From assembly GCA_036768485.1 (NCBI GenBank), contig JAVLUZ010000191.1, positions 1,176,242-1,240,241 of the forward strand: a DNA stretch of 64,000 nt, in the 5' to 3' direction. Source of the stretch: Mermis nigrescens (lineage: Eukaryota; Nematoda; Enoplea; Mermithida; Mermithidae). The notes below the pieces were generated by a model that did not search any database, had not been told where the DNA came from, and was given only the letters and a program-made list of their open reading frames with translations. The position numbers and the translations under genes are program-made. Below are positions 28,636 through 60,510 of this stretch, one piece after another. The first letter of the stretch is position 1; every line of letters starts with the position of its first letter.

Positions 28636-30890
28636 GATTGTGTCCCAACATGGCCACCAGTCCCAACACGGCCACCATCCCAACACGGCCACCGTCCCAA
28701 CATGGCCACCGTCCCAACAAAGCCACTTTCTCAACAAGGCCACTATCACTGGTTTTTAATCACTTAAGTAGGTATTAAAAGTTAATTACATGAAGGTAAT
28801 TAGGCATGGATATACATGTGATAGCAATTAAATTGATGACTAAAGTTAGTTTATTGCATGCATAAAAAATTTTGCATGCAACGAAGTACTGTTCTGCACT
28901 GTGGTCGGGTTGTGCATGTTGGGCGCATCGGAAACATTGAATATTTGTTAATAGTTTCAAAAAGCGGTAGGTAGTCAACAGTCGGCACACAATTACCAAA
29001 CAAGATACAGCTTAATGTAAATACGATTTTATTTATCGCATCGTGCACCTCATTGACAATAAAACAGGTATGTATGTAGGTAGTGCAGTGTCAAGATATT
29101 GAAAAGGTAACGTCCAGGGTGACCGACAGTCCCGGGTCATCGACAGTCCCGGGTGACCGACAGTCCCGGGTGACCGACAGTCCCGGGTCACCGACAAATA
29201 GTATAGAAATAGATCTGTCAATCAAAAAAATTCCCGAGTGACCGACAGTACCTACTGATCGACTGTTCCGAGTGGCCGACAGTCCCGGGTGGTCGACTGT
29301 ACCGGGTGGCCAACAGTCCCGAGTGGCCGACACTGTACCGGGTGATCGATAGATGGCATGAAAATTCCCAAATGACCCGGTTGTACTATTACTATGGATA
29401 AATATTTTTTAAAATCGAAATACGTAGTTTTTCATTCTCTTAGAACAGCAATAAAGTTTGCACTGGCATAAATGTGAGTATCAACTTATTACATGTACAT
29501 ATTGTATTGTATTTAAATTTATTATATGTGCATATTTACTAACAATTTTGTATCAAATAACAAATATTCATTTTTGTCCAGTCGTCTTTAAGATCTCGAA
29601 TTACTTATATTTTTGTGCGCGTTAAATTCGGCCTAGATCGTAGTTTCACATGCGCTATGGAATACATAAGCAATAAATCGCGTTTAGGCACCTTCAGAAT
29701 CAAAAAATTATAAAATAAAACCTCATTTGCATTCTGAATCGGGCGGATACTCAAACCTTTTTGGTCAAAATAAACATTTTCAAGTGAAGCGTTGCACAGT
29801 ATTTTCGAAAACTGAGAAACTGGCTGCATAAAAGTCTTGGCTACGCCTCTGTTTTTGATTAAATGGCGAGTAAATCATTTGATGGTACATTCGCAGCACT
29901 GAAGTTACACAAATATGTAGCTGTAATTTTGCAGCCACGATGAGTTTAAGTAGGATAGCACTAAATATTACGAAATGTAAATAATGAGGCCTTTTTACCA
30001 AATCCTGCATGTTTTAAATTTGTTATGAATTCATATGAGCAATGTTATTGCATTGGTAAAACTATTTATGTGCATAAATTGGTACCAACTTAAAAAAGGC
30101 ATTAATTTTCCGGAATCATTTGTCAGTTAAGAATTTTCATGACAATTTTATTATTATACCACTTGTCGGTCACCCGGGACTGTCGGCCACCCGGTACATT
30201 CGGCTACCCGGGACTGTCGGCCATCCGGTATAGCCGGCCACCCGGCACTGTCGGCCAGACGGGAATTTTTTTAGATTGACAGATCTATTCTTAAAACCAT
30301 TTGTCGGTCACCCAGGACTGTCGGTCACCCGGGACTGTCGGTCACTTGGGATTGTCGGTCGTCCGGGACACAATCATCAAAAATGTGCCGTTGAAAAAAG
30401 GAGACACATACCTATGTGGATTAGGTTAAAAATAGAAAACTTATGCCCAAAAACAGTATAAAACAGTCGGTGTCGTTTCGTGGCACATTTTGCTCTTAAT
30501 CTGCTAGTGTCAATACTACATCTTAAAAATCGATATGAATGATTTTGGACCAGTCCAAGAATTTTTTGAATCAGGAATTATCGTATAGCCTGTTAATTGT
30601 TGAATCGCGAAATCATCCTAACAATTACTATTTGTTTAAAAAGAAATCTCCTAAACGTCTGTCCAATAACGTTTCAAATTATTATTATATTTGCAAGTTT
30701 TGTTTGGTGGTAGCCTTGATGAGACAGTGGCTTTGTTGGGACGGTGGCCATGTTGGGACGGTTGCAATGTTGTAACTATGGCCATGTTGGAATTTCGGTG
30801 GCTGTGTTGGGACGGTGGTCTTGTTGGGATCGGTGGCCGTGTTGAAATTTTGGTGGCCATGTTGGGACGGTGGCCATGTTGGGACGTTCA
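28636..30890. mobile_element. Foldback element FB-A1 (17 bp array arms), carries nested FB-B
   Basis: The left end is GATTGTGTCCCAACATGG and the right end is CCATGTTGGGACGTTCA. Flanking TTTAAAAAC (28627-28635) and CTTAAAAAC (30891-30899) agree at 8 of 9 bases, as a target-site duplication would. Each arm is a tandem array of a 17 bp unit, GTCCCAACACGGCCACC, inverted between ends (28640-28752 and about 30715-30888). Inside the left arm, 28760-29090 is near-identical to 37995-38320 of FB-A2. A second foldback element interrupts the middle. There is no transposase, so it is non-autonomous. A 9 bp duplication with repeat-rich inverted arms fits MULE/Foldback types. Confidence 0.85.
29107..30375. 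mobile_element. Nested foldback element FB-B (17 bp GTCCCGGGTGACCGACA array)
   Basis: This element lies inside FB-A1 in the reverse orientation. The left end GTAACGTCC and right end GGGACACAATC are the inverted counterparts of the FB-A termini (GATTGYGTCCC / GGGACGTTAC). Its arms are arrays of a different 17 bp unit (about 29113-29350 and 30165-30370, inverted). The flanks ATTGAAAAG and ATCAAAAAT look like a decayed 9 bp duplication. The uninterrupted FB-A2 copy reads ATGAAAAATGTG at the same point, giving the empty site. The 0.8 kb core has no recognisable protein. Confidence 0.75.
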
Positions 30891-31342
30891 CTTAAAAACA
30901 GCTAGTTAATCAAAGAATCATCATAATAATGTTCAGAAATCTATACACATATGCATGTATATAAACTGTCCGCTATATAAGAGCAGATATAATTAGTCTC
31001 AAACTACGTATGTAATGCTAACTGCTGAGATAAATAGGTAGGTATCTACGCAATTTGATAAATTAGCCGTATTATTGTGGCTTAGCATCATCGAACGTGC
31101 AATTTCTAGAAACCTGATATTATAATAGTTTTCTTGATCCAACCTGCTAAAGGGAAAATTAGCATCTTGGTCAACGAAAAAGAATATCGGAGCATTTCAT
31201 TGGAACATGTTTATTGCACAGGTAAAACAAACATACAGCCTACATACTTTGAATAGCGAGTAAAGTCAAATTTGTCTGAATTGTAAGAACACACGACTGA
31301 CTACGAAAATGAAATAGAGCTAAATATACCCCAACTAGCAAA

Positions 31343-32165
31343 GAAAAATGCTCCGATGGAACAAAAAAGGGGAATATACTTGGGATTGTGAATTATCGAG
31401 GATGTAAAAGGAGGGGACTAGGAATCTCCCTATGTTATATGCCAAAAATCGCAAAATATGTTAAAAATCAGACTTTCTCTAAACAATGCAAAAAATCGAA
31501 GTATATTCTGCGGTCTCTGAAAAAACGTATTATTTTAAAATAATTTTCTCTGATTGACATAATATCTTAAAAGCATATTACGTAATGCAACTTTTTGCAG
31601 ACTTCATTCAACTTTGAGTTGCTTAATAATGTGACTGAAAGTGAAATGCTGTTAACAAATCATAATTAAGTTGTTCGTATTTCATTATTACTAAGCATGT
31701 CACTTAGCAGATACAGCCATTCTAAGTGTCAAAGTGCAAGCAATATTCAAATTACCAAAAAATTGATTGAAAAAAGCAGCGAATTAGCAATGCAGTAGCT
31801 AAGCGAATTGAATGAAATAGTACATATCGATGCATTCAAGACAATCGATGATATTGTTGGTTCAAAGCAGTAGGAAACACGGAAGCTGACGTGCAACAGA
31901 CCTTATGTAGATACTCTTTTACACATGTCTACAACAATTGTTTACTAAACTTTTACATTTTACAAAGGCCGCAGAATATACTTCGATTTTTTGCATTGTT
32001 TAGAGAAAGTCTGATTTTTAACATATTTTGCGATTTTTGGCATATAACATAGGGAGATTCCTAGTCCCCTCCTTTTACATCCTCGATAATTCACAATCCC
32101 AAGTATATTCCCCTTTTTTGTTCCATCGGAGCATTTTTCTTTGCTAGTACCCTACTTTTAATTAG
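31343..32165. mobile_element. T-T palindromic element with near-perfect long arms
   Basis: ACTAGCAAAGAAAAATGCTC at the left and its exact complement at the right begin inverted arms of about 185 bp (31343-31530 and 31975-32162). No mismatch was seen by eye until CGAAGTATATTCTGCGG. The arms enclose about 440 bp of non-coding AT-rich DNA. Such identity suggests recent insertion or gene conversion. Flanks TACCCCAA and TACCCTAC may be a degraded duplication. Diverged copies of the arm recur as T modules elsewhere. Confidence 0.8.
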
Positions 32166-32219
32166 CAAGATTTGGAAATACAATACTAGATTCCATTTAC
32201 TGTGCGGTTCTTCTAATAA

Positions 32220-35200
32220 TTGAATGGTTTAAACTTTACAAAGCTACTAGTTGTAGAAGAAACAAACATTCTGATTAGTAATTCTTATGTTACGTAGAAC
32301 ATCCTGTAAAGAAATATGCTTCCAAAACTTTCTAGAGCTAAACTTAATTTACATTTTAAACTTTACACAAGAGTGTAAAGAATTTTAGTGGGATTAATAA
32401 TTTCGATATTGCTCTGATATAACGATCAGCATTTATTAAGAAATGAAACCTCTATAATGTTCTAAGAACAAATTAACATTAGGTGTTAATCACTTTACAC
32501 TACTCTTCATGCGCCCCTAGCAGACGTATCACATCTGTTTCCATATATATTTTACGACTTTAGGGAAAAAATAAGTTACCGTGAGGCTCTAGAATGAAGC
32601 TTATTATATAGTGTAAACTTTACACTAGCAACGAGTGTAAAGAAGATTTTAGTCGGATTTGTAAATTCGATATTACTCGGATATTACGATCAACATTCAT
32701 GAAAAAATTATGTCTCCATAACGATTTAATGACAAATAGACACAGATGTAAACCACTTTACATCACTGTTGAGTGTAAACAAACGCGCCCAGCTGACGTC
32801 CCTTATTTGATTCCATGTAAATTTTCAGATTTCGGCAAAAAATTTAGGTTTTTGCAAAGCTCTAGAACGAAGATTAACCACTTTACATCACTGTTGAGTG
32901 TAAACAAACGCGCCCAGCTGACGTCCCTTATTTGATTCCATGTAAATTTTCAGATTTCGGCAAAAAATTCAGGTTTTCGCAAAGCTCTAGAACGAAGATT
33001 AATTAGCAGTGTAAACTTTACACAACCGCCTAGTGTAAAGAGGACTTTATTCCGATTTGTAAATCTGATATTACTCGGATATTATTATCAACATTTATGA
33101 AAAAATTGCATGTCTACAATGGTCTGAGGACAAATAAACAATGAGTGTAAACTACTTTACATCACTGTTGGATGTAAACAAACGCGCCTACGTGACGTCT
33201 CACATTTGATTCTTTGAAAATTTCTAGACTCCAGGAAAAAATTAGGTTTCTGGAATGCTCAAAAACGAAGATAAATACATTTGTAGTGTAAACTTCATGT
33301 AAACACCTAGTGTAAAGAAGATTTTGGTCAGATTCGTAATTTTGATATTGTTCCGATATTACGATTAATATTTATGAAAAAATTAAGTCTCCATAATGTT
33401 CTATGGGCAAACTAACAATAGGTGTAAACCACTGTACAACACTGTAGAGTGTAAACATACGCGCCAGACTGGCATATCAAATTTGGTTCCTGGTCTATTT
33501 CTAGACTTGATAATCGTGTCCCTGACTCATAACCGGAGAAGCAGGCAGAAAAAACAAGACAAAAACGCATTTTAAACACCAAATTTTTGACTTTACACTC
33601 GCTAAATATTAATGTATACACAATTTGCTTTGACATGCACCCGATATAAAGCACTTTATTTTTATTCTATTGGACTTATCCCGACTTCTGGACGGAGAAA
33701 GTGGCGAACAAAAAAAGCAACAAAAACGTATTTTCCATCATTTAGAACACTGTAAACTTTAAAATTCCGTACCGAACTCCCCATTGAGTTTAAAGAAATT
33801 CGGTTTGGTACAATTTGTAGCTTTTAAATCGTAGTACATTCCTGTGTGCCAAAATTCTCTTGCAAAAATTATTTGGTATGATTTATTAATCAAAATTCGG
33901 AAAAAACGTGTTTTTTCGCCCATTTTTTACCTCTGATTTCGAACTTTACACCCCCATAAATAACTCAATATTGCGTTTTTTAAATGCGGTTTGCTGCGAT
34001 GTGTAGCCTCTGAGAGGCACTTTATTACTGCTGTATTCAATTTACCCTGACTCATAAGCGGGAAAAATTTGGCAGAGAAATCTTAGTTAAAATCCGTTTT
34101 TTACACCATCCACTAGAGTGTAAACTTTAAACCCCAGGATCTAACTCACCATAGAGCATATAAGACTTTGCTTATATGCAGAATGTAACCCTTGATCCGC
34201 TCTACATTTCTGTCAGAAAACATTTTAAAAAACTAATAACCGGAGTTAGTATCGGACATAAGCAGGTTGAAAACTCGACCAAAAAGTGCTTTTTCACCCC
34301 CAGATTTTCGCACTCTTTACACTGCCATTCGATAACTAATGCGAATTTCAAAAAACAAAAAAAGTGCCATCTGTAGAATTCATCCCTCTATTATCCTATG
34401 CTGTTCAATTCTTCAAGTCATCAATACTCAGTTGTCCACATGCCGCAGTAAAAAGGTCCCAAAATTTGTCCTATGTTATAACGTTACACAAAAACTTTAC
34501 ACCTTCTTTACACAGTCAGTTTTGAGTTTCAAGAAAAACAAAAAAACACAGGCAGCGAATTTTTTTATTATCTTTCTTTTAAAAAAAACCGCACCTTCCA
34601 GAAGTGTCCCGTTATAGCTGTAGAGGGGGTGCACAGGTGTTAGGGGTACCCAAGTATATTATAGGTACGCGCTAACGCGCTACCTAAGATACATATGTTG
34701 TCATTTGCTTATAACTGAAATCATTTAAGTTTAACGTAAACATCGAATAATTTCAAATTTTTCCACCAGTTTTTTATCGATTGTTACACAAAATTACAGC
34801 TTAATATATCATAGGTAGCGCGTTAGCGCGTACCAATAATATACCTACTTGGGTTGGGTCCTCGAAGCATATGACTATCCCCCAACAGCAACATTGGGAC
34901 ATTTCTGGAAGGTGCGATTTTTTTTAAAGTTAGATAATTAAAAAATTTTGAGCAGAATTTTTTGTTTATACTCAATACCGACTTTGTAACGAGCTAATGA
35001 GTGTGGTAAAGTTTTGACGCAACGCTGTAACATAAGGCGATTTTTGTGGTTTTTTTAGGACCGCTTGTACACAACTCGGAGTAAATACCTCATGCGATTT
35101 AATAGTACAGAATTGGAAAGAATATAATTTTCTTGAGACACCTTTTTTTAAATTTCGCATCAGTTCTCGAGGGGGTGTAAAGAGTTTTAAAATATGTGGT

Positions 35201-35440
35201 TAAAAACCAGTTCCGATCGGATTTTTGACTTGCTTATGTCTGGCAACAAATCCGGTTATGAGACTCAAAATTTTATTTTGATAGAAATGAACTACGACTC
35301 AGTGGCTACTTTTGGTTCAACAGCAAACTTTTGTGCACTCAGTACAGAGTTAGGTATGGGGTGTAAACTAAACACTCTAGTGGGTGATGTAAGAAAACAG
35401 GTTATGTCAAGAATTTTTCCGCCAAAAATAGAGTAGGTCT
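32220..35440. repeat. GTGTAAA satellite block S3
   Basis: Units with GTGTAAACTTTACAC recur from 32350. A longer unit containing CGCGCCCAGCTGACGTCCC and CAAAGCTCTAGAACGAAGAT is duplicated almost exactly at 32745-32870 and 32880-33000, and diverged again at 33150-33300. From 33.5 kb the words match S2 and S4 in inverted order. Two palindromic GGTAGCGCGTTAGCGCGTACC-type motifs lie at about 34660 and 34815. The segment ends near a partial T module (35441-35476). No credible gene is present. Confidence 0.75.
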
Positions 35441-35479
35441 AAAGGGTTCCATCGGAGCATTTTTCTTTGTCAGTTAGGT

Positions 35480-37680: not shown

Positions 37681-37698
37681 GTAGACCGACGACAATTT

Positions 37699-38767
37699 GA
37701 TTGCGTCCCAACATGGCCACCAGTCCCAACATGGCCATCGTCCCAACACGGCCACCGTCGCAACACGGCCACCGAAATTCCCAACACGGCCACCGTCCCA
37801 ACATGGCCACCATCCCAACACGGCCACCGTCCCGACACGGCCACCGTCTCAACATGGCTACCGAAATTCCCAACACGGCCACCATCTCAACACGGCCACC
37901 GTCCTAACACGGCCACCGTCCCAACACGGCCACCGTCCCAACATGGCCACCGTCCCAACAAAGCCAGTGTCTCAACAAGGCCACGATCACTATATTTTAA
38001 TCAGTTTCAGTAGGTATTAATAGTTAATTACAGAAAGGTAATTAGGCATGGATATACATGTGTCAGCAATTAAATTGATGACTAAAGTTAGTTTTTTACA
38101 TGCATAACGAATTTTGCATGCAACGAAGCATTGTTTTGCACTGTGGTCGGGTTGTACATGTTGGGCGCATCGGAAACATTGAATATTTGTTAATAGTTTC
38201 GAAAAGCGGTAGGTAGTCGGCAGTCGGAACACAATTACAAAACAACATACAGCTTAATGTAAGTACGACTTTATTTATCACATTGTGCACCTCATTGACA
38301 ATAAAAACGGTATGCATGTAGGTAAACTGAAAAAATGATGTACGTGGCCCATGGACGTGCCAGTGTCGAGATGAAAAATGTGAAGTTGAAAAAGGAAACA
38401 CACTAATTTGCCGCCTCGCTGAGGTACAAATCTACGTTTCAAAACTTAACAATTACCTTTCTATACTATTAATACCTACTTACGGATCCACTGATTAGAA
38501 TAAATTGGTGGTGGTGGTGACCTTGTTGAGACAGTGGCTTTGTTGGGACGGTGGCCATGCTGGGACGGTGGCCGTGTTGGGACGGTGGCCGTGTTGGGAA
38601 TTTCGATGGCCGTGTTGGGACGGTGGCCTTGTTGGGACGGTGGCCATGTTGGGATGGTGGCCGTGTTGGGACGGTGGCCATGTTGGGAATTTTGGTGGCC
38701 GTGTTGGGACGGTGGCCATTTTGGGACGGTGGCCGTGTTGGGACTGGTGGCCATGTTGGGACGTTAC
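37699..38767. mobile_element. Foldback element FB-A2 with perfect 9 bp duplication
   Basis: It is flanked by CGACAATTT at 37690-37698 and again at 38768-38776, an exact 9 bp target-site duplication. The left arm (37704-37987) has 16 units of GTCCCAACACGGCCACC and the right arm (about 38516-38763) has 14 inverted units. Every few units there is a 21 bp variant carrying GAAATT. The innermost units in both arms read GTCTCAACAAGG, so the arms are ordered mirror images rather than random expansions. The 0.5 kb core is shared with FB-A1. The frames reading (W)PCWDGG or HGHRPNTAT are translations of the array, not genes. Length is 1,069 bp. Confidence 0.9.
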
Positions 38768-38776
38768 CGACAATTT

Positions 38777-43018: not shown

Positions 43019-44325
43019 GGAGTTAAATACTTTGTTGACCAACCGGTCGAACAAAAAGGCGCAGTGTTTACTTTTAATTAGCTTTTCGTATTCTAACCAA
43101 GTGGAAGCTGAAAATTAAACTAAAAACTTTTTAGGGTCGCATCAATTTCACTTAATTTTGTTGTTTTCGAACTCGACGAAAAATTTGAAGCATGATCATA
43201 TATAATTTTATACAGGGTGGCCCATAAAAAAGGCTACATTCCGATTTGGCAGGTCGTAACTTCGGCTCATGTTAACTTCAAAGTTTCAAACTGGCTGCAT
43301 TTGATAGATAAAAGTTTCTTCTTTCTAAATGTGTAAAAAATTTTGGCGAATTCTATGTGCTTCGGGCGCTAAGGCAATTTGTTTACACCCTATTTTAATA
43401 TTGTTTAAAAGCTGATAGCGTCATTGGTCCAGCTAGCAATTTGCACCCTCTTATGACGATATCCTGAAATTTTTTCACTCGCTAGGGCGCGTATCCATTC
43501 TGGAGATTTAAAAATGTGCTAATTAATTTTTGTGACTGCATATATTGTCAAAAATGTCAAACAAGGATACCAACATACACAGTTATGTAATACAATGTAG
43601 AAACCATATGCTTTAAACAGTGAGGTGTAAACAAATTGCCGCAGTGCAGGAACCGCTAAGAGTTGGCCAAACTTTCAACGTAGATCAGATAAGGACATGT
43701 TTACCAATCTAATGCAGCTGGTCTTGAAATTTTATTTTCACATATCTGTATGTTATGTTATGTTATGTTATGATGTTATGTTAGCCTTTTTTATGGGCCA
43801 CCCTGTATATATTGCATTTAAATTGACAACTTCCACCAGAGTTTTCTTTAAAGTCTATACAATAACGCGTTTGTAAAAAGTTTAAATGTCAAAAAATCAC
43901 TTATTAATGCGAAAAAATGTACATCGGAATACATTGTCAAGTAAATTAGTGTATATCGAACATGTAAGACGCCTACGAACAAAAGTCTTTAAATAACTGA
44001 TCTAAGGTATCAAATTTGCCGCGCCACATCCATTCAACCAGATAACTTTCGTATGTATTGGTGTTCATGCGTCCTCACTGAAGTTCGTACAATGTTTTGT
44101 TTTTATTTGTAAATAAATTAAAAGTAATGCAAAGCCTTAGAAAATTATATATGGTCAAGCTCCAAACTTTTCGAGGAATCCGAAAATAACAAAAATAAGT
44201 GAATTTGATGCAATCATAAAAAAATTTTAGTTTAATTTTCAGCTTCCAGGTGGTACGGGATCTTAATTACAAGTAAATACTGCGTCTTTTTGATCGACCG
44301 GTTTGTCAACAAAGTAATTAACTCC
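43019..44325. mobile_element. Nested element with ~100 bp inverted ends
   Basis: GGAGTTAAATACTTTGTTGACC and CCGGTCGAACAAAAAGGCGC at the left match, inverted, CCGGTTTGTCAACAAAGTAA and the flanking bases at the right. Inverted similarity continues to GGAAGCTGAAAATTAAAC (43107 left, 44230 right). The element interrupts the left end of the 42941-48858 element and is itself interrupted by a mariner-type MITE. No coding sequence is seen. Confidence 0.65.
43213..43805. mobile_element. mariner-like MITE (CAGGGTGGCCCATAAAA ends)
   Basis: It starts CAGGGTGGCCCATAAAAAAG and ends with the exact complement, a perfect 26 bp inverted terminus. It is flanked by TA on both sides (43211-43212 and 43806-43807). 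TA duplications and CAGGGTG-type ends are typical of Tc1/mariner elements. The 593 bp interior has no transposase. A short TGTTATG tandem tract lies just inside the right end (about 43748-43782). Confidence 0.9.
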
Positions 44326-44348
44326 ATGGGGCCAATTCATTTCCACTT

Positions 44349-44828: not shown

Positions 44829-45098
44829 AGAGACAAAGAAGTGGCATGGAAAGAAGTGCAAAGAGAAGACGCGCGCGTCGCTAACAGAACCTGGCCAATT
44901 TGCAGGAACAAATTAAAACTTCATTTTTGCATCGCAAACTGCCATGAGATTGATAGTATGATTGCCGTGCCAATCAACAAAATCTGGTTCTCTTTCTTTC
45001 GGCGACTTGATGCCAATCAAAGTGCCAACTAAGGGCATGCCAATATTTTCCAACTTGTAAAATTCGCTGCACAATTGCTGACATTCATTAGCCATTTC
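44829..45098 (-). pseudogene. PIF/Harbinger transposase pseudogene, downstream part
   Basis: The minus strand reads NECQQLCSEFYKLENIGMPL, VGTLIGIKSPKEREPDFVDW, HGNHTINLMAVCDAKMKF, then one in-frame TAA, then FVPANWPGSVSDARVF. This is the DDE nuclease core of Harbinger transposases: the family pattern GCIDGTH...P...Y.NRKG.HSIN.Q.VCD...F......WPGSVHDSR is easily followed. The Asp of the IDGTH motif is not preserved (TLIGIK here) and WPGSVSDAR keeps the second motif. It is interrupted upstream by the foldback element FB-C; the remaining N-terminal piece is at 46510-46607. It is dead by at least one stop and one insertion. Confidence 0.85.
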
Positions 45099-46509
45099 GG
45101 CACGCAGCATTAGAGCGCACGACATTAGAGCGCCGACATTAGAGCGCCGACATTACAGCGCAATGGCATTAGAGCGCAGCGACTTTAGAGCACAGCGACA
45201 TTAGAGCGCAGCGACATTAGAGCGCAGCGACATTAGAGCGCGCGACATCAGAGTGCGCGAAATTAGAGCGCAGTGACATTAGAGCACGCGACATTAGAGT
45301 GCTGCGACATTACAGTGTGCGACAACAGAGTGCGCGACATTAGAGCGCGCGACATCAGAGTGCGCGACATTAGAGCGCAGCGACATTAGAGCGCGCAACA
45401 TAAGACTGCAGCAACATTCGAGCGCGCGACATTGACGCAGTGGCATTAGAGCGCGACATTAGAGAGCAGCGACATTAGATCGCGCGACATTAGAGTGCAG
45501 CGACATTAGAGCGTGCGACAATAGAGTGCGCGACATTAGAGCACGCGACATCAGAGCGCCGATATTAAAGTGCAGTTACAATGGTGCGTCATGGAGGCAG
45601 ACATAAACTTTTTCTTTCCTACGAAAAAATTTGTAACTTTTTGTTTCTAAAAACTGGTGTACAAAAAATATACCTAGCATACATAACGAAAATCACTTAA
45701 ATTTCTTGTTTGCTTAAGAAGTAGAGGGTAAGTGAGATAAATTCTCTGCAAAAACAGTGTCTACAGACGACCCCTTGCTATGCTAGTTGTAAAGTTGTAG
45801 GTGTAAATTATTTCAAAAAAATTTGATCTTAATTCAAACATCTTTTGACCAATGGAGTAGACTGATCTGTTTTCTGACACGTACAGCTCTAAAATTACGG
45901 TAGTAAGGGTGTTATTTTCGGACATTATTTTGTAGCTTTTCATTCACTTTCTAATAGAACTATAACCTTTTCACTTGTTTTCTTGACACAGTAATCCAGG
46001 ATAAGTTTACACAAATTCTGAAGTTTTTATTACTTACTGCACTTTTAGGTTGTTTACTGCATCAATAAAGTTCACGCTTGATTTGCACAACTTACAGTAA
46101 ATGCGTACAATTTACAAAAAAATGTGAAAATGGATACCGTAATCTGTGTCGAGAAAATAAATGAAAAGGGTATAATGGCGTTACACAAAACCTACTGCTT
46201 CAAAAGTTACTGTCCTTTTTCCAAAGATAAGTAAAAAAGTCAAAATTTATACTTTCGTACATACACTAATTCAACCAGTGTGCGACTCAACCAGAAAGTA
46301 AAGAAAAGAATTCAAAAGTCTGTTCATTGTTTTACAAAACAAAAGAAACCGCATGCATTTATCACTAGCTCATATCGAGATATTTATGCGTAGGTAGTTA
46401 ACTTTGCCCCCTTAGCATAAAAGTTTTGTAAAGTTGCGTGGAAAACATCTATTATGGCTGCGCTCTAATGTCGCGCGCTCTAAAGTCGGCGCTCTGACGT
46501 CGGCTCACC
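45099..46509. mobile_element. Foldback element FB-C (16 bp AGCGACATTAGAGCGC array)
   Basis: It is flanked by AGCCATTTC at 45090-45098 and 46510-46518, an exact 9 bp duplication. The left arm (45099-45575) is an irregular array of about 28 units built on GCGACATTAGAGCGC; the right arm (46454-46505) holds three inverted units. The ends GGCACGCAG and, inverted, GGTGAGCCG are similar. The core carries an inverted pair of CTTGTTTTCTTGACACAG-like motifs (45970 and 46140) also found in the element at 47727-48411. The host is a Harbinger transposase pseudogene, whose frame is restored if the element and one duplication are removed. Confidence 0.88.
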
Positions 46510-46607
46510 AGCCATTTCAGGAAATTTCACAAAGTCGTAAAATAAATGTCTAACAATGACACCGACAAATTCGTGAAAAACGGTGCAAACGGTTGCTTTA
46601 GAAATAC
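46510..46607 (-). pseudogene. PIF/Harbinger transposase pseudogene, upstream part
   Basis: From a splice-like TATATTTTTCAG at 46608 the minus strand encodes GISKATVCTVFHEFVG and then HLFYDFVKFPEMA, running up to the FB-C insertion. GIS.STV...VH and FI.FP are the helix-turn-helix-like lead-in to the Harbinger nuclease domain. The frame continues directly into NECQQLCSEF on the other side of the insertion. No earlier exon was identified with confidence; an acidic stretch on the minus strand at 48440-48550 is a weak candidate. Confidence 0.75.
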
Positions 46608-47726: not shown

Positions 47727-48411
47727 AGGCCCTGCTATATTCGCCGCGCGGCGCCGCGTGGCGCCGCGTGGCGAAGTAGCTGCTATTCTTCCAACGCGGC
47801 GCCACGCGGCGCCGTGCCGCATGGCGCCGCGTCGCGCCGCGTGACATGGGTTGTGCTGCTGTACTTCCACGCGGCGCCGAACGGCAGAAAAATATTTATT
47901 GATGTTGTAACTGCAGTAAAACAGCAAAAAATAAAACATGTGTAAACTGTATACTGTATTCTGTGTCAAGAAAACAAGTAAAAGGGTATAGGTCAACGAT
48001 TGTGTACATTGAAAACTGTACTCATTTTAGGTTTCTCGCATCATGAAAACAAGTTTTGAAAGGCATGGAGACAAACATTTTCGCACACAGACATCTTAAA
48101 AATCGATTATATATTCAATTTTCACGCTTTCACGTATGCATAAACATCAGTACATCATAAAAAATGCTAAAATCAAGCTTTCCCTCATAAATACATGATA
48201 AATATAGGCCGCCGCGTCCCACCGCGTGGCAAAAGTTTGATCAGTGTTCAAACTTCAATTTATCTGCCACGCAGCGCCGCGCTGCGCCGCGCGGCGCCGT
48301 GGGGCGATGCGCTGCTATACTTCCACGCGGTGCCGCGCGATGCCGCGTTTAGAAGTATAGCAGCACATTTTGTCATTGCGGCGCCGCGCGGCGGGAAGTA
48401 TAGCAGGGCCT
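47727..48411. mobile_element. Harbinger-type MITE with GGCGCCGCG palindromic arms
   Basis: The ends AGGCCCTGCTATA and TATAGCAGGGCCT form a perfect 13 bp inverted repeat, flanked by TAA on both sides (47724-47726, 48412-48414). A 3 bp TWA duplication is the PIF/Harbinger signature. Inside are arms made of GGCGCCGCG and CCGCGYGGCGCC repeats with TAGCTGCTAT and ACTTCCACGCGG interludes. The GC content is extreme in otherwise AT-rich DNA. The core (about 47880-48210) shares a CTTGTTTTCTTGACACAG-type motif with FB-C. Frames reading RRHAAPRG are array translations. Length is 685 bp. Confidence 0.8.
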
Positions 48412-50260: not shown

Positions 50261-50264
50261 ATTA

Positions 50265-51850: not shown

Positions 51851-51977
51851 GGAAAATACGTGGATACGAAGGTAGTCAGCGTTGCTACTTGCCAGCAATT
51901 TAAAAAAAATAAACATTGTATATTTCGTTAATACACTCTCATCTAAAACTTTGAACATTATTTAAAAAAGATACTTT

Positions 51978-52155: not shown

Positions 52156-52179
52156 ATGTATGTATGTGTGTATGTGTAC

Positions 52180-52406
52180 CTTCGCTTCGGCAACTAGTCG
52201 TTCGCGCTCTTTCATCCATTTTGGACAAAATTTCCACATGAAGGACGTATAAAAAGAAGAGCATAGTCTTACGAATGAAACGAATGTTTCTGATAAAAAT
52301 TTTCCTATGTCAGCCGCCGTAATGAACATTAAAGGAATTCCTAACAATGCGAATAATACCGCAAAAATCATGCCTTCGTTTGTCACAGGATCAATGTGAC
52401 TATATC
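52180..52406 (-). CDS. K2P channel exon, first filter end and TM2
   Basis: The 3' splice site CAATTTTTTAG is followed by GA, completing a Gly codon: TACG|YSHIDPVTNEG. TM2 follows, GMIFAVLFALLGIPLMFITA, with the GIP and ITAADIGKFLSE motifs of the TWK family. It continues to a basic cytoplasmic segment (WKFCPKWMKERERLVAEAK) and ends AAG|GTACAC in phase 0. The first filter therefore reads T-A-C-G-Y-S: the last glycine of TxGYG is a serine, and the filter is split by the intron between its Gly and Tyr codons. Both bases flanking the junction support this reading. Confidence 0.92.
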
Positions 52407-54199
52407 CTAAAAAATTGGTACAAAAATAGTTATTACGGAGAAAACAAAAAGGAACCTTTGCGGACATTGAGAATTGGATAATAAATTCGAATTGAAAACA
52501 TAAAAAAAATCAATCAATTCAACGTCAGACCTTTACTAGTCGGTATCTTGGTAAGAAAACTTAGGCTACCGATCAATTTCCTAAATTTTAGTCTGATACC
52601 TTGAAAGAGTAAAAATGTTTTTATCGATCTGATAATTATTTTGATTCCTTATCTATTGTAGTATTTATTTATTTTTTATTTATTGCACTGCATTATTCAA
52701 TATAAATATCGAGCCAATTTTTTATATATTTTTGTATCAGCGATTTTGTACAAGGTCCTTTCATAAATTTCTAAAAACTCTTAGGGAATAATTTTTCAAG
52801 ATGGTCCCTAAAAATCTGTGTATTATATGTGAGTTCAGATAGAATAGAATATGGTACATTAAGCGTTATGTAAAGTAAAATTGGGTTTTTCTACTTTCAG
52901 TTATGCAGTTTAGCCAATTCATAATTTTCTGATTGTAAACCAATACAAAAAATTTTTAGCACGGTTCGAAACGCCAAAACCAAATAGGTATGTTTTGCAA
53001 AGTGGAAAATATTTCGAATTAGAAATTTAAATGTAGGTAATTTGAAATTAAGCTCTCGGAAATTAGAACGTTTTACTGAAATTTCTATTTTTTTAAAGTC
53101 TCCTTTTTTGGCTTTTTTATCGGGTGATTGGAGAAAGTAAGATTCACGACGTACACACACATGTATAAAAAGGACATTATGTAAATACATGTAAAGCATG
53201 GGAATTCTGGTGGATCAATCTGAAAAATTTTTAAAAATGCCTTTTTGGGTTAAAAACGATGGGTACACGTCAAAAACACAGTCTTTTGTCGTTTCGGACA
53301 ATGCTCGTTCTTTCTAAAATATAAAAACACAAAAAAAATTTTGAAAAAGTTTGAAAAATTGAGTAAATTGAACAAAATATAGTCACAAAAATGTGTCTAT
53401 GGCGCTAAGTGCCAAAAATTTGAGATTTTTGAGCCAAAATAAGGAGCTGAAAACGCTTGAAAATGTAATCGTTTTACAATTTTTGCAAAAAATCGATAAT
53501 TCTGGGGGGTCGGGTCGCGGCCATTTAGCGGGGTCAGTAGCCATTCTCAAGGATGGGGGTTAAACCACCACCAAGCAATTAAGAACATGTATGTACTCAT
53601 CTCTTAGCGTTTTTGCCTTCCAAATTTTTTACGCTTCGCGCCGGATAAAATTAGTTAATTTCTTGCTCGTTCACAAGCCATATTTTTGTAACTATGTGAC
53701 TACATGGGCAAAAACAGAGAAATTTTGGCTATTCTATCTCATTGTAAGCAACGAGTCCAAATATTATACAAGCCTAGCGCCATATTCATTAATATTTTTT
53801 GTCAAACTCATTAAACTGCAAAGTGAAAAGTTGCACTTATTTTGGCTATCATTAGTCATCCTCTAGCCTAAGTTTATTTGAATTCTGCAGCCCATTTTCA
53901 ATTGAAATGCTATTCAACGACATACCAACGAAGTTTGCTCAATTTTCATACTGAGTTTCTAGATATTTCAAAATTTTTTTTATAAAATTTCCCGTCACAA
54001 AAATAATTCTAGACTATAGGAAATGGCAAAAAGTCGCCGTCCTCATGCTGATAATACGTACAATCCAAGAATACGTATAATATTCTTAGCTGCAAATGTC
54101 GATTTTGATTTGAATTTTTCGTTCATCACTTTTATAATGTGCGGTGTAGGAAAAATTAGCTGGAACCATTCTAGTCGTACACGGGATGCAATTTGTTAC
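52407..54199 (-). other. K2P intron 1 with R3 repeat
   Basis: The donor TGTG|GTAACA and acceptor are clear. The region 53190-53590 is a copy of dispersed repeat R3 (GCATGGGAATTCTGG, CACGTCAAAAACACAG, GGCGCTAAGTGCCAAAAATTT, a TTCTGGGGGGTCGGG stretch). The rest is AT-rich and shows nothing recognisable. Confidence 0.7.
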
Positions 54200-54554
54200 C
54201 ACATGCTGTAAGGACAGTAAGCGCGTAGAGGATGGCCGTTGAAAAAGTCCATTTGGTTTCAAGCGGCAGCTGGTCGTCAGAGAGGCGTCGGTTGAAAAAG
54301 AACACGGACACATTTTGCAGATGTTCGTAAACACGTCCAGTCCACTCAGCGTGCTCCAAGTGCAGCGATTGCGTGTGCAGACGCCACGTTTCGTCGGCCA
54401 CCCGACGGAACAACGAATCCAACTCGACAAGGCGGCCGTGGCGCCGCGTGATCTCTGTGCCATTCTCCAGCCGCTGCAAAATCGCCGCACCGGCTGCTAA
54501 ATATGATAGCAGCACGCTGATCAGAAGAACATGCGGCACTGCTATCTTGAGCAT
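54200..54554 (-). CDS. K2P channel first exon found (TM1, cap, first pore helix)
   Basis: ATG at 54554 opens MLKIAVPHVLLISVLLSYLA and AGAAILQRLE, the TM1 of a two-pore-domain K+ channel, with NGT and NVS glycosylation sequons. A long extracellular cap segment (RRHGRLVELDSLFRRVADE...) leads to the pore helix WTFSTAILYALTVLTACG. The exon ends TGTG|GTAACA in phase 1. Five exons join to about 428 codons, close to the usual TWK size. The ATG directly follows TTACGTGACAG, which looks like a 3' splice site, so a further 5' exon or a trans-splice acceptor is possible. Plausible role: a leak K+ conductance in excitable cells. Confidence 0.92.
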
Positions 54555-56095
54555 CTGTCACGTAATAAAAAAGAGTCGCTATGAAGTTTATGGCCGATAA
54601 ATAGGAGCTACACTTTATGGCGGAGGTCTACCTACTGGGAGTCAGCCGGTTGCGGAACCAATTAGTTCATTTTTAGTTCACACTTTATTCACAATTTTGG
54701 CTTTTTAGTGTAAAGTCTATATTCCAAAAAACTTTCTACTTTTTCCTTCTGGGTTTTCAGGACCCTCATTCCCACGTATGTTTGATTGTAACACGCAACC
54801 ATAAATGTACATGTGGAGCTTTTTTGTGCTAAAGGATATTAAAGATTAATATGAATGATAAAATAGCAAAATACTGAAAAATTGTCACTTTATACTTAGT
54901 TTCAAGCACTACTACAAAAATTTGAATTTTACTCCGCTTTTGATTTGATTTTTACCAGAACAATTTGCATTTTCCCTCAGTCCCTTTCCCTGTGCAAACT
55001 ATGGACTCAAGACTTAACGCGACCATAAATGGGCGTAGGGAGTAGGTGGGAGTTAGACCGCAGAATTCAAAAAACCTGTACAGAATACGATTAAACCCAA
55101 CATTAAATTTTTTATGCTTTTTCCGAATTTGCCCTATCAGACCTTTTCCTAAAATTTATTTGCAGCACATTACGAATGCAAACCCTTGCGGTATGTAGCG
55201 ACTAACACACGACTCTCATGTACAGGCAATACTCAATTAAGTACGAAAAACCTAACTCTAGGCAGCTTTTAGAATAAAGCACGGTTTTATTCAAACATAG
55301 CTGCTTTATAGCTACTGAAATAGTTTTTTCCGCTTTGCATGTGATAAAAGTAATCAAATCATCTTTCAAAAATTCATCGCTGTAAATAAGATATATCTGG
55401 ACTCATTTAAGCCTTTATAAATCTCAATCTTAATAACATTCGGATATAAAGTCTTCGCCGTTTGTAAGTACAAATCAATGTTTATTAATTAAAATGTAAA
55501 AGCTAACAATCTAGTATATAATCTTATTTCCAAAAATTACAAAGAATTTAAGTTGGGCCATTTCTCATTTTATTTTAAAATTATTTATCCGATGCTTGCC
55601 AATAATTGTCGCCTAAGCTGAATATGGGGATTGATCGTATTCACCAAGTAACAGCTTATAACGGTTTATTATATTGTGGTATGTTATATTTGTAAGGCGC
55701 GTTAGGTTGAAGCATGGCGTAGAGCATGGTACATCTTTAAGCCACTGTATCGGTAGTCCCACCGGCTCCTTAAGCCCAATGTTCCAATGGATTTAGCAGA
55801 AAAAAATCTCGACAGGTCTCTATTTCGATAGACCCACTAATAATATACCATGTCTCCCTAGACCCTTATTTTATAGCGTGTGTAGTGTTTATAACATAGG
55901 CGAGGTGCGCCCTCGCCCTAAATCAAGGTCGCACCAGGGCGCAAATGGGTGTGGATGGTGTGCCCGAACCTGCCCAGAACCGCCAGTAAGGCTATGGAGT
56001 CCCTCAGGAAGGGGGTCCTGGAAAGGATTTTCTATTTTATCGATTTTTCCACTGTAACAGTCGGTTCCGAAGCAAGTTATTCCGAAACAATATGG
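54555..56095. other. Upstream of K2P, no gene recognised
   Basis: AT-rich DNA that should hold the promoter of the K2P gene or an additional 5' exon. No distinct promoter element, repeat or exon was recognised. Confidence 0.45.
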
Positions 56096-56098
56096 CAT

Positions 56099-56099
<1 letters not shown>

Positions 56100-56182
<83 letters not shown>
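56100..56182. repeat. (GT)n microsatellite
   Basis: About 40 uninterrupted GT dinucleotides, followed by GCGGGG. Frames reading poly-CV or poly-HT through it are artefacts. Confidence 0.97.
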
Positions 56183-56183
<1 letters not shown>

Positions 56184-56204
56184 GGGTTAGAAGTGGATGT
56201 GGGG

Positions 56205-56425
56205 CTAGGGGTTTCATAACCGCCACCTAGGGTCACAAACGCCACCGAGGTGAACAATTTCCACTAAGGTTCACAAGCGCCATCAAGTTCTACAATCGTC
56301 ACTGGGGTCCACCAGTGGCATTGAGGCCATAATCACCCTGGGAATTCACAAGTGCCACTGGGGTCCACAAGCGCCACTGAGGTCCACAAGCGCCACCAAG
56401 GTTCAGTATAGCCACTCTGGGTAAT
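56205..56425. repeat. Tandem array, ~18-20 bp unit (GTCCACAAGCGCCACTGAG)
   Basis: About ten degenerate units run from CGCCACCTAGGGTCACAAA to GCGCCACCAAGGTTCAGTATAGCCACTCTGG. The array adjoins the broken end of the minus-strand PolB fragment. A related piece (AGTGGCTAGGTGAACATTGG) lies past the MITE at 63535-63912, behind the other PolB fragment. Confidence 0.85.
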
Positions 56426-56429
56426 TATA

Positions 56430-56880
56430 GCTACCAATGCTCATATGTGTACAACTATTTTGTGATCAGGTCATAATGATTATTATCTATGTACATGCAA
56501 ATTAATTTTTATATCGGTCTTAGGCCTTTCATAAAACAAAATGTTGTCCGAGTATATCTGGATTCGGTAGACAGATACCAGAATACTTTGAATTTTTTAA
56601 ACAGTTTCAGGATCGTATTTTTTATTGGTGCTAAAGTTAGCCTTACGCATTACATCTAAAGCCAGCTGCTTTTGCAGTATGCAGCTGCTTTTATTGCCTT
56701 TCCTAATAGACTCTCATTTTGGGCTATTGTCCAGCTTTGCTATTCCTGTAACAACAGCCCAAGAATACTGACGCTGAGAAAGTGGGACTTGGACTTAAAC
56801 AGGGAAATAAAGACTTGAATGGCTGATTTCAATGCCTACCATACTGTCTGCAGGGTAATTTTTGAGCGTCTTATGATTGC
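56430..56880 (-). pseudogene. Polinton/Maverick DNA polymerase B, N-terminal fragment
   Basis: This follows the capsid gene directly on the minus strand. It matches the plus-strand PolB fragment at 62945-63520 in order: AAGACGCTCAAAAATTACCC, CATTCAAGTCTT, GTTGTTACAGGAATAGCAAA, ATTCAAAGTATTCTGG and ATCATTATGACCTGATCACA. About 200 bp present in the other copy is missing here, and there are several stops. It ends at GAGCATTGGTAGCTATA, the same point as the other copy. Polinton PolB is the protein-primed polymerase that copies the element. Confidence 0.75.
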
Positions 56881-57346
56881 CTAATTGTCTTTTGCATCAA
56901 CATCACCTCCACCTTCACGAAAATATGACGCTGCTTGCAAGTGTGACTGCTTAGCATCATATCCATAATTCACTTCAAACTCAAAGTATGATCTGTATGC
57001 ATATTTATTAGAGCTGTCGAAAACTAATTTACCTCCTATAAAGCATTTTATCTGCTTGAAGAAGGTTTTACTAATAAGCTTTATAAATACATAGTCGGGT
57101 ACTGCTGCTCTAGCAGCAACTGTCCTTTTTTTATTTGTAGTAACTTACAAATGTAATTTTTATTCAGCTAGAGATAATTGGGTCTGGGGTTATTCTGAAT
57201 TCATAAGACCCCTCATTGTTAATCGGATGGGTGGGCAGGATTTTATGCCAAAAGCCTTGCTTTATAACAACCTGGGTAGGAGGGACCGTGAAAAGGTCAA
57301 ATTCACTTTTAGTACTTGGGATAGATTTTACATATATGAGCGCCAT
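56878..57346 (-). pseudogene. Polinton/Maverick major capsid protein, N-terminal part
   Basis: The first frame starts MALIYVKSIPSTKSEFDLF and continues TVPPTQVVIKQGFW, then ..SYEFRITP. SELDLF..PPTQ near the N-terminus is the conserved start of Polinton major capsid proteins (double jelly-roll). After a stop and frame change, a second segment reads KQIKCFIGGKLVFDSSNKYA and YRSYFEFEVNYGYDAKQSHL, the next conserved block. The rest of the capsid (several hundred residues) is deleted, and the sequence runs straight into PolB. An upstream in-frame ATG at 57379 is less likely to be the start. Confidence 0.82.
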
Positions 57347-57388
57347 TGTTTTCAGAAAAAGCATCAATTCTGTTAGCATCTACATACT

Positions 57389-57722
57389 GTGACCCACTTC
57401 CGAGTCCTTCCCCTTGCTGCTGTAGAGATTTAGAGGCCTCATCAAAAAGTTGTGCAGCTTCTCAATTTGAATATTCCATACTAGACTCGAAAAGCGGTTT
57501 TCCCTGAGCCAAATCAGATGCTATATTTGCAACCACCACTAAAGCATGCTTTCCAACTCCCTTACTAATAGATTGCAAAACAGGGACAGCCATTCTGAAA
57601 AGGAAACAAAAAAACTGCCAGGGCCAAGACCCCACTGGTATGGAATGCCTTTGAACCCCTCCAACAACCCATAGGCAGTTTGGGCTACCTGCCCTGTATA
57701 ATATTCCAACCAGACGCTTAAA
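57389..57722 (-). pseudogene. Polinton/Maverick minor capsid protein
   Basis: YYTGQVAQTAYGLLEGFKGI precedes a Gly-rich GLGPGSFF and, after one frameshift, RMAVPVLQSISKGVGKHAL and VANIASDLAQGKP, ending near LQQQGEGLGSG. The order of a short Gly/Tyr start, GxGLGSFF, a VP.....GK.VGK amphipathic stretch, NVASDxxxG and a QQxGxGLG tail is typical of the Polinton penton/minor capsid protein. At least one frameshift and one stop inactivate it. It lies directly upstream of the major capsid pseudogene on the same strand. Confidence 0.75.
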
Positions 57723-57788
57723 TCGTCAGAAGTAAATTGATGGTGGATTTTTGTGATTTTATTCAAATAAATTGAATACGATAAGAAT

Positions 57789-58345
57789 TTATATACTTTC
57801 ATCCCAATCAAATTCATCGCCTGCAGCAAAAATCTCCTCAGTTTGCCTACCTGATCTTTCAAGTGGAACATTGGTGTGATTGAACACTTCCAGCAATTCT
57901 TTTGTGCCAGGATATCTGCTGATTTTTTCGCACTCGCGTGCCAGATCATTGGTTAAATCTATAATATTTGAGTCTTCAATTTTTTGACCATCTATCACAA
58001 GTTCGCCAACCCGTGCCTCAATTTCAAGAAATAAAGTCGTACGAATGTTGTGAAGAAGCAGCTTTGCCTTTTGAAATTCGACTTTTTAGCATATCAGAGA
58101 GTATTTCTTTATCACTAATTTCATTATTTGCTCCTTCTACAATGCTACCTTTATATGATTCCTATTTCTGTTCTTTCAATCTCATAAATTTGACAAGTAT
58201 TTGATTGCAATTTATTAGCTTTGTACCAAGTGCTACATTGTTGTTATTAAAGATAATTTGCATCTCATTATCCAAGAATCGAGTAGAATGTCCACTAGTT
58301 AGAATGTTCGCTGATTCCAGTGGATATTAGAATCATTTTTTCAGT
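57789..58345 (-). pseudogene. Polinton conserved protein between ATPase and capsid genes
   Basis: The minus strand carries FLDNEMQIIFNNNNVALGTK, then after a stop EILSDMLKSRISKGKAASSQ, and a final frame with GELVIDGQKIEDSNIIDLTN and ending DEFDWDESI. A GELVxxGxxIxGSNIIDLxND segment followed by G..E....L...NVP occurs in an uncharacterised protein of Polintons placed near the capsid genes. Here it is broken by stops and frame changes. The function of this family is not known to me. Confidence 0.55.
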
Positions 58346-58732
58346 GTGTTTCATTGTCTACCTGTTATTGCATCAACTAGTAAACTGCCCGAAATTGTAA
58401 GTATAGGAGTAAGTAAAAGTGGAAGAAAACTACCACCTTATATTATGATGTTTTTTTTACTTGCCTGTCTATTGTTTGCCAAGTATCCTCTTTTGATTGA
58501 TTCTGATATCTTCGAAGTTTGCTGATATCTTTCTCACAAAAATCAATATTATTGTTCAGGAAATTGCTTTACACAGTTGCAAAGACAAAGGGTTTGATCT
58601 TTAGTTGCAGTATTTGTAATAGCGTCTGTTTGAAGTTTCTTTGTTTTACTTAAAAGATATAGACATACAATATTGCGTTTTAATCGTTCTTCACCCATTT
58701 TTACATTATTGCATTAGTGTTCTTCTTAGTAT

Positions 58733-59345
58733 TTATAGATCTTTTTGTATATGCACAGTGGGACGATCACTGAAAATATTTTTTAGCCTAAGCTCATCCC
58801 TAGCGTTTTGGGTGAAATCAATCAGAAGTTTGTCATGCGGATGATAAGTAGCATCGTAATAGGCTTCTAAAAAGTATTTTGGATTGGTAGGGTAAAGCTG
58901 CCTAGACAGCATTTGTGCCTGTTTGTACCTGATCAGCAGGATTTTTAAATAAAACAATGTAATCTTTTTCTATGCACAATGTTCTGAGACCTTCAAAGAA
59001 AGCGTTTTGTACAATGTGAATGATGTTAATGTTCCAATGATGACAAGACAACTCCTTGTGAATAGTTGTACAATCTGAGCATTACCCCTGCTCTCTTGCA
59101 TTGAAATTCATCGAGTATCAAAAGTTGTGGTGTAGGACTGAACTGCTAAGAGTAATTAAAATCAGGAAGTCCTCTCTATAAATGACACATTCTCGATTTT
59201 TCTTTAAAAGCGGCTGGTTTTCTGTAAAGCACCGGCAAATCTTTTTATTTTGATATTATCAATCAAACATTCTCTGTTCTCAATCAGTCGCCTTACAAAG
59301 GTTGTTTTGTCTGACTTCGTTGACTTTTGAGACAAGGCATGATAA
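58733..59345 (-). pseudogene. Polinton/Maverick packaging ATPase pseudogene
   Basis: A degraded Walker A region reads SKSTKSDKTTFVRRLIEN. Further on, QLLILDEFQ is a Walker B-like motif, then AQIVQLFTRS and, in another frame, VQNAFFEG and IVLFKNPADQ. The C-terminus is open: QLYPTNPKYFLEAYYDATYH, then PHDKLLIDFTQ and ..LRLKNIFSDRPTVHI. This order (Walker A, ILDD-type Walker B, FT..SHH, V.QN.F..G, LFKNP.D, YP) matches the A32/HerA-FtsK-type genome-packaging ATPase of Polintons. Multiple frameshifts and stops show that it is dead. Confidence 0.78.
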
Positions 59346-59540
59346 AGAATGTTCAAAAATTATTTTTTGTTATGAATATGACTTAATCAGAATGTGAGTA
59401 TTTATAGAAAATGATCGCTATACAGGAGATTATGCTTACTACAGCACTACCGAATGTGCTCAATCTAGATTATGTCTACCTGAAATCGCCAAATACTGCG
59501 CAATACAATCGCCAAAAATTTTCTGCGGTATTGTATTTCG

Positions 59541-60510
59541 GAATGCGAAGATCAGCCCCGCCCCCACATTTTCGCCCCCACAATTTCGCCCCCCCACATT
59601 TCGTCCCCGGACATTTCGTCCCCACGCCCCCGACATTTCGCCCCCTCACAATTCGCCCCCCCCCACATTCGCTCACCCCCGACATTTCGCTCCCCGACAT
59701 TTCGCCCCTGGACATTTCGCCTCCCCCACAGTCAGTGGCGTATCGCAGGATCTGTCTAGGGGAATGGGGGGTCCGGACCATGACGTGGGCAGCACCAAAA
59801 TTCTAGGGGTGGTGCAAGATTTTTCAACAGGTAAACCGCGAAAAATAGGACTTTTTACATCGTTAATTTTGTGCACTATTTTTGGTTTAGACCCCCCAAA
59901 ATGGTGTTGGCCTCCCGACAATAGGAGGGCCAGCTATCGTGCCTGCCCACATTTCATCCTGCAGAACATTTCAACCCCGGATTTATCCGGTACACTTTTG
60001 TGTGCTACCCTGTAACTGAAAAAAACTTCAAAAAATGAAGTAATGTGAGACACCATACATTTGATGCGAAGTTAAATTTTTTATCAAGATTTCTTCGCTT
60101 ATTCAAAACAGAACATAATATGCATAAAAAATGACTAATCAATACTTTACTTACAATTAAGAAAAAACAATGACTTAAATTTGAATTCATAAGAGCACGT
60201 GGGCCCAGGGGTTTTATGAAGTATACGCTTGTCTGCTCAAGGACCAAATCTAATTCATTTTAAAGTTTACACCCCCTATGCACAGTGAATATGGGGGAGG
60301 GCGAAATGTGTGGGGGGGTAGTGACATGTCTGGGGGTAAAATGTGAGGGGGGGCGAAATCCGGGGGGCGAAATGTCCGGGGGCGAAATGTGGGGGGCGAA
60401 ATGTCCGGGGGCGAAATGTGGGGGGCGAAATGTGGGAGGCGAAACGTGGGGGCGAAATGTGGGGGGCGAATCGTGGGGGCGAAATGTGGGGGGCGAAATG
60501 TCCGTAAACC
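59541..60510. mobile_element. Foldback element FB-D (15-16 bp CCCCACATTTCGCCCC array)
   Basis: The left arm (59557-59733) repeats CCCCACATTTCGCCC-like units and the right arm (60290-60503) repeats the inverted GGGCGAAATGTGGGG. The flanks TGTATTTCG (59532-59540) and TGTATTTTCG (60511-60520) differ by one T, so a 9-10 bp duplication is likely. The inside left carries the R-type end module (GGGCAGCACCAAAATTC...GCCAGCTATCGTGCCTG). The core of about 0.3 kb has no gene. It is inserted between Polinton remnants. Confidence 0.75.

Follow-up and report, generated by a model that had tools for sequence, protein, structure and literature searches.

Foldback arrays of short tandem units in Mermis nigrescens: probable arms of non-autonomous Phantom-type Mutator transposons

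Why should several foldback sequences in one nematode genome build their arms from tandem units of similar length and seemingly unrelated sequence? The question is raised by a stretch of 64,000 nucleotides from Mermis nigrescens (GenBank assembly GCA_036768485.1, contig JAVLUZ010000191.1, forward-strand positions 1,176,242 to 1,240,241; hereafter the window, numbered from its first letter), which is part of an assembly of 524 Mb in 860 contigs. A first-pass annotation described four such units, here A to D, as sharing a constant length, free sequence and a flanking duplication of about 9 bp, and took them for a candidate undescribed system. We consider it likely that the arrays are instead the arms of non-autonomous, cut-and-paste foldback transposons of the Mutator superfamily, of Phantom type. 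Since this is a known type of foldback transposon, the common layout would reflect a shared kind of transposon and not a new system.

All four units are indeed present as inverted tandem arrays, in numbers far above chance: with up to three mismatches allowed per unit, 41, 17, 28 and 21 matches were counted for A, B, C and D, against 0.01, 0.04, 0.28 and 0.08 expected from shuffles. The arrays fall into five elements, A1, B (nested in A1), A2, C and D (Table 1), each of which has inverted arms of tandem short units (the right array of C is short) and a target duplication at both borders. Outside the arrays, different short motifs mark the two ends: GGTAAC and GATTGT in A and in B (one copy), GGTTTAC and GGGATGC in D. 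One end of A1, GTGAAC, is two changes from GGTAAC, and the left end of the window copy of D reads GGAATGC in place of the GGGATGC of other copies. The borders of C, like the left end of D in the window, were placed by eye.

B begins with GGTAAC and ends with GATTGT, the end hexamers of A, and its units differ from those of A. Another A copy, L028, has the uninterrupted site ...AGATATTGAAAATGTG..., where A1 reads ...AGATATTGAAAA, then B, then ATCAAAAATGTG..., and B is flanked by an 8-bp duplication whose copies now differ at two positions. The empty site fixes the borders of B and is strong evidence that B entered A1 as an element in its own right; the alternative that A and B are two arm pairs of one element is thereby ruled out.

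Elsewhere in the same genome we drew 20 stretches of family A and 10 of family D and, as an independent sample, 20 evenly spaced 10-kb stretches from two contigs (200 kb). In the fetched copies and the window, one end of family A elements reads GGTAAC-GTCCC and the opposite end GATTGT-GTCCC, and the exact sequence GATTGTGTCCCAACATGG of the GATTGT end occurs at 105 places in the genome, against none for its reversed control. Among 21 copies of A (19 fetched, A1 and A2; L027, a stretch without its left end, was omitted from the end and duplication counts), 10 have an exact duplication of 8 bp and three one of 9 bp, three match at 7 of 8 positions and one at 8 of 9, and four have no duplication, none of these four having the GATTGT end. 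An exact duplication at a fixed offset is thus present in 13 of the 21, and one within a single mismatch in 17, whereas 420 mismatched pairs of A flanks yielded no exact match and four within one mismatch. Two of the copies without a duplication, L017 and L018 (C48:17604100 and 17788600), lie 184 kb apart and, flanks included, are seemingly one A copy present in both orientations, in what looks like an inverted duplication or an assembly duplicate; both were kept in the count, so that the distinct copies number 20, and L017 was omitted from the comparison of arms below.

Both ends of family D are present in five of 11 stretches (four of the 10 fetched, and the window), and the duplications there match at 8/8, 9/9, 9/9, 7/8 and 7/8 positions. 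L037 has neither end and L030 and L036 have one, while L029, L034 and L035, with one end visible, look like copies of a single D stretch; L031 has two GGTTTAC ends, of which the outer was used. With lengths of 8 and 9 bp among A, C and D, and both lengths inside family A, the duplication is one of 8-9 bp and is not fixed at 9. The proposed link between these families and short direct duplications therefore holds, and the proposed length does not: 8 bp is commoner than 9, the copies flanking B agree at 6 of 8 positions, and E, an additional inverted family of the window, apparently has a duplication of 3 bp by eye.

The genome also contains transposase genes that we assign to the Phantom type by their domain content and relatives. 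There are at least 60 matches to the MULE domain and at least 121 to the FLYWCH domain, both lower bounds (for FLYWCH, 150 of 169 candidates were scored), and among the matches listed a FLYWCH place lies no more than 2.5 kb from 29 of the 60 MULE places. Together, the two domains are the pair found in Phantom transposases (PMC3169594). A 334-residue open frame with both domains, in L059, is preceded by an array of units of about 15 bp that include CGGACATTTTTTCCC. The protein has 79 relatives in a set of 5.8 billion proteins, the best 34 of which all carry both domains, and the named relatives come from firefly, aphids, wasps, spider, shrimp, horsehair worm, frog, rotifer and nematode; NCBIfam returned no match for it.

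The unit CGGACATTTTTTCCC, which defines family I, differs from the D unit CGGACATTTCGCCCC at 3 of 15 positions. It occurs at 57 exact places in the genome (reversed control, 1), grouped in 25 clusters; a longer pattern, CGGACATTTTTTCCCCGG, had no genome match. A listed FLYWCH or MULE match lies within 3.5 kb of ten of the clusters, where about 0.07 would be expected; L059, the source of the unit sequence, is one of them by construction. The clusters C61 and C366 each have an array followed by both domains and then by an inverted array, and at C68 and C161 inverted arrays enclose a FLYWCH match. In seven more clusters (C120, C161:423758, C226, C314, C366:1319232, C723 and C776) no match lies between the arrays of an inverted pair, and these are apparently copies that lack a gene. 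The C61 element ends in GGAATCCCGGACATTT and GGGTATCCGGACAATT with a 7/8 duplication, a layout like that of the D ends GGGATGCGGACGTTT and GGTTTACGGACATTT. A second Phantom copy, C726 (L060 and L061), retains about two units on the 5' side of its gene; inspection by eye of the 2.3 kb retrieved showed no array on the 3' side. A separate set of eight near-equal FLYWCH matches, in 70-residue open frames with no MULE match listed beside them (Table 1), perhaps represents a recently spread FLYWCH family, intron-split or of another sort.

The Phantom filing is best for D, since genes are carried by a family whose units and ends resemble those of D, and for A, B and C it is suggested by anatomy. A number of observations weigh against it. 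The 100 listed A ends (of the 105 exact ends) all lie at least 21 kb from the nearest listed FLYWCH or MULE match, and none of 11 exact D array places, compared by eye, is near one; hence no gene-bearing copy with A or D units was found. No FLYWCH+MULE gene was seen inside the window elements, and L022 (5.2 kb) and L019 (2.9 kb), the longest A elements fetched, have no FLYWCH or MULE match among those listed; a transposase in these two was sought among their listed open reading frames (at least 80 and at least 90 residues) and none was evident. In family I, 15 of the 25 clusters have no gene match, three of the 10 cluster matches are weak (FLYWCH E-values of 4e-4 to 6e-4, at C161, C64:3611371 and C68:3925249), and the match at C68:3925249 lies 3.3 kb from its cluster. 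The end borders of the C61 element were placed by eye and fitted to its duplication, and the likeness of the D and C61 units, 12 of 15 bp, was likewise judged by eye. Finally, the units of A and B are no more alike than shuffles (184 of 200 reach the observed likeness). A different superfamily is conceivable for A and B. The suggested search for a common transposase with similar termini has, in sum, a divided outcome: Phantom-type genes lie between inverted arrays of a D-like unit, and none lies near the A ends or D arrays examined.

Arms of short tandem units are a feature of the TU elements of sea urchin and of Drosophila FB. Tm1, a Mutator/Foldback element of root-knot nematodes (Meloidogyne), carries different motifs of 7 bp at its two ends, beyond the inverted repeat, together with a GGA motif of 3 bp. 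Its arms are tandem units, 14 bp being the commonest length, its duplications measure 8-10 bp in 45 of 53 cases, and an autonomous form with a FLYWCH+MULE transposase exists beside many non-autonomous copies (PMC3169594). The elements described here are alike in their asymmetric ends, GGA motif, tandem-unit arms and many non-autonomous copies, in duplications of 8-10 bp (8-9 bp in A and D, 9 bp in C) and, for the D-like family I, in the domain pair, but differ in the sequences of units and ends, in the coexistence of several unit families and in units of up to 17-20 bp. The Muta1 and Muta5 MULEs of Aedes aegypti combine a terminal motif with 9 subterminal repeats, of 12 bp (with 3-4 bp spacers) or 15 bp, have duplications of 8 or 9 bp and have left hundreds of non-autonomous derivatives; 10 of 12 families with long terminal inverted repeats in that mosquito have subterminal repeats of 9-15 bp, and Muta1, classed as a foldback element, moves in yeast (PMC5225508). 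Terminal motif, short repeats and duplication lengths are again alike, but the sequences differ, and no autonomous member lies near the 100 listed A ends. Phantom MULEs (group 20) have duplications of 8-10 bp, terminal inverted repeats of 18-613 bp or none, and FLYWCH among their zinc fingers (PMC6446971); the duplications and FLYWCH agree with what we find, although no gene was seen in the window copies and placement here is by domain content. Tetris, a foldback element of Drosophila virilis found only as non-autonomous copies, also has 8-10 bp duplications, but its units, of about 220 bp, are far longer (PMC4079207). With the same anatomy published for Tm1 and for Muta1 and Muta5, the idea of an undescribed system is not sustained. 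A literature search made in general terms, and not with the unit letters, brought up nothing recognised as these particular families, which does not show that they are unpublished.

A general pathway can be proposed on this basis. An element would consist, in order, of an 8-9 bp target duplication, an asymmetric end motif of 6-7 bp, an array whose units measure 14-18 bp, an interior, an inverted array, a second end motif and the second duplication. A FLYWCH+MULE transposase from autonomous Phantom elements elsewhere in the genome would bind at the ends, possibly at the units too, and move the element, with a staggered cut of 8-9 bp giving rise to the target duplication. D may be mobilised by the transposase of the D-like family or a near relative, and A, B and C by other Phantom-type transposases. 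The arrays may lengthen and shorten through unequal exchange and the duplication of whole blocks, as suggested by the Tandem Repeats Finder periods of 51, 55, 72 and 89 bp that overlie the 17-bp unit.

What, then, of the unit length itself? The modal spacing is 17 bp in A and B, 15 in C (13-16) and D (13-17), 10 in E, 18 in G (ahead of 17 by just 15 to 14), 20 in H, and 14 in I, where 15 and 16 are nearly as common, so that I stands at 14-15. G and H are the two inverted pairs judged to be elements in the 200-kb sample; we left out of the count, by our own judgement, the AT-rich or short pairs from L041, L047, L050 and L056. With modes running from 10 to 20 bp, a constant unit length is not supported; the variation in length that had been named as refuting the idea is seen in part, in that the main class lies at 14-20 bp and not at one length. 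Nor is the sequence altogether free. The units of A, B, G and F all carry GTCCC, and the shuffles (of 200) that reach the observed likeness number 1 for A-G, 0 for F-G, 3 for B-F, 11 for A-F and 23 for B-G; A and B themselves share the outer hexamers and GTCCC and are otherwise at the shuffle level noted above. G and F look like further members of the A/B group. The ends of G and the single end of F were read by eye in L053, where an 18-bp-unit element at 2840-4140 ends in GGTGAT and GATTGT-GTCTC and lies in or beside another array, which has a unit of about 17 bp, CCCACCGTCCCACTAGA, and ends in GATTGTG. In H (L054) the inner ends appear alike (GGTCGCTCC) and no convincing duplication was seen.

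A structural constraint, such as a transposase footprint or helical phasing, might hold units near 14-18 bp while their sequence drifts, which is compatible with Phantom-type transposition and which we regard as possible but not probable. Of 387 spacings in family A, 284 are exactly 17 bp (38 are 18 and 36 are 21), published units measure mostly 14 bp in Tm1, 12 bp plus a 3-4 bp spacer in Muta1 and 15 bp in Muta5, and the core C[AG]ACA is present in four of five representative units, a result equalled by 2 of 200 shuffles. At the same time, the modes of H and E are 20 and 10 bp, spacing within families varies by 1-4 bp, and Tetris has its units of about 220 bp; the core is in five of the eight units overall, which 20 of 200 shuffles equal, and we have set it aside as weak. 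More doubtful still is the thought that a single Phantom-type machinery accepts arms whose units have turned over nearly completely, provided that the outer motif and a spacing of about 14-18 bp are kept; end recognition would then read the outer hexamer and the repeat spacing, and not a fixed internal site. That one mechanism stands behind the families is favoured by the end hexamers common to A and B and by the Phantom-type genes between D-like arrays.

We think it unlikely that A and B, the GTCCC group, are moved by a non-Mutator transposase of P/Galileo or hAT type, with C and D alone being of Phantom type. P/Galileo-type and hAT elements make 8-bp duplications, the prevailing length in A, and the 100 listed A ends stand apart from the FLYWCH and MULE matches. 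Galileo, indeed, has long arms with tandem repeats, within which the THAP domain of its P-type transposase binds sites (PMC3688188). However, mixtures of 8 and 9 bp are published for Muta (PMC5225508) and both lengths occur inside family A, and the asymmetric end motif is a trait of Tm1 (PMC3169594).

Less likely again is the copying of an arm onto its partner in the same element by fold-back templated repair, a mechanism that had been suggested for rebuilding arms. Across 20 A elements, the two arms of an element are slightly more alike (0.752) than opposite-end arms of different elements (0.733; permutation 0.009), but same-end arms of different elements reach 0.764 and 0.758, and the partner arm ranks first in just one of the 20; the two arrays of C, moreover, are very unequal (about 460 bp on the left and 45 bp on the right). 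Such copying has little support here, and nothing points to routine rebuilding of an arm from its partner. A satellite or minisatellite nature of the arrays, with the inversion due to chance or rearrangement, could be suggested by tandem units with higher-order periods; it is scarcely credible in view of the recurrent ends and, in the case of A and B, of the empty site and the duplications.

Table 1. Coordinates of the elements and duplications in the window, and of the eight FLYWCH matches elsewhere in the genome.
Feature	Position	Strand	Description
A1, non-autonomous foldback element	28636..30891	.	17-bp units GTCCCAACAYGGCCACC; ends GATTGT- and GTGAAC-; interior interrupted by B
A1 8-bp target duplication, left copy	28628..28635	+	TTAAAAAC; 8/8
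A1 8-bp target duplication, right copy	30892..30899	+	TTAAAAAC; 8/8
B, nested in A1	29106..30375	.	17-bp units GTCCCGGGTGACCGACA; ends GGTAAC- and GATTGT- like family A
B duplication, left and right copies	29098-29105, 30376-30383		ATTGAAAA/ATCAAAAA; 6/8 identical
A2, family A element	37699..38768	.	ends GATTGC- and GGTAAC-; arrays 37705-37985 and 38516-38762
A2 8-bp target duplication, left copy	37691..37698	+	GACAATTT; 8/8
A2 8-bp target duplication, right copy	38769-38776		GACAATTT; 8/8
C	45099..46509	.	15-16 bp units GCGACATTAGAGCGC; ends GGCACGC- and GGTGAGC- (single copy, by eye)
C 9-bp target duplication, left copy	45090..45098	+	AGCCATTTC; 9/9
C 9-bp target duplication, right copy	46510-46518		AGCCATTTC; 9/9
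D	59540..60510	.	14-15 bp units CCCCACATTTCGCCC / CGGACATTTCGCCCC; ends GGAATGC- (by eye) and GGTTTACGGACATTTCG-
D 8-bp target duplication, left copy	59532..59539	+	TGTATTTC; 7/8
D 8-bp target duplication, right copy	60511-60518		TGTATTTT; 7/8
E, further inverted family	47727..48411	.	10-bp units CGCCGCGYGG; ends AGGCCCTGCTATA; apparent 3-bp duplication TAA; borders by eye
Eight FLYWCH places	C64:13037478, C61:29947852, C48:15982743, C61:25499603, C63:1445736, C101:1895513, C44:3817292, C64:9155874		70-residue open frames

We regard E as another type of transposon, distinct from A to D: TAA is apparent by eye at both borders of one copy, a 3-bp TWA duplication is a trait of PIF/Harbinger elements, and E may be Harbinger-like. 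The window holds other repeats as well. An inverted repeat element at 31334-32148 has 191-bp arms that are 98% complementary and no tandem array, and pieces resembling it by eye lie near 13519 (+), at about 27133 and 10092 (both -), and in the flanks of the A copy L010. An element at 43211-43809 with ends TACAGGGTGGCCCATAAAAAAGG, which we take to be mariner-like, sits inside a larger inverted pair at 43096-44254. Among the A-ended stretches, the 5.2-kb L022 has an interior (about 1300-4500) that looks like a degenerate tandem repeat, to judge from its repetitive translations. Four of 10 window frames tried match 7tm_1 or Ion_trans_2, as would be expected of animal DNA.

We see in these data no evidence for a new kind of system. 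Arms of this kind, here and in the published elements, favour units of 14-18 bp, and unit sequence seems to turn over under the same ends. In this respect M. nigrescens offers one animal genome in which several sibling foldback families coexist with many Phantom genes, and in which at least one family has gene-bearing and apparently gene-less copies that share arm units. Together, they represent a usable set for studying the role of the units and the turnover of their sequence.

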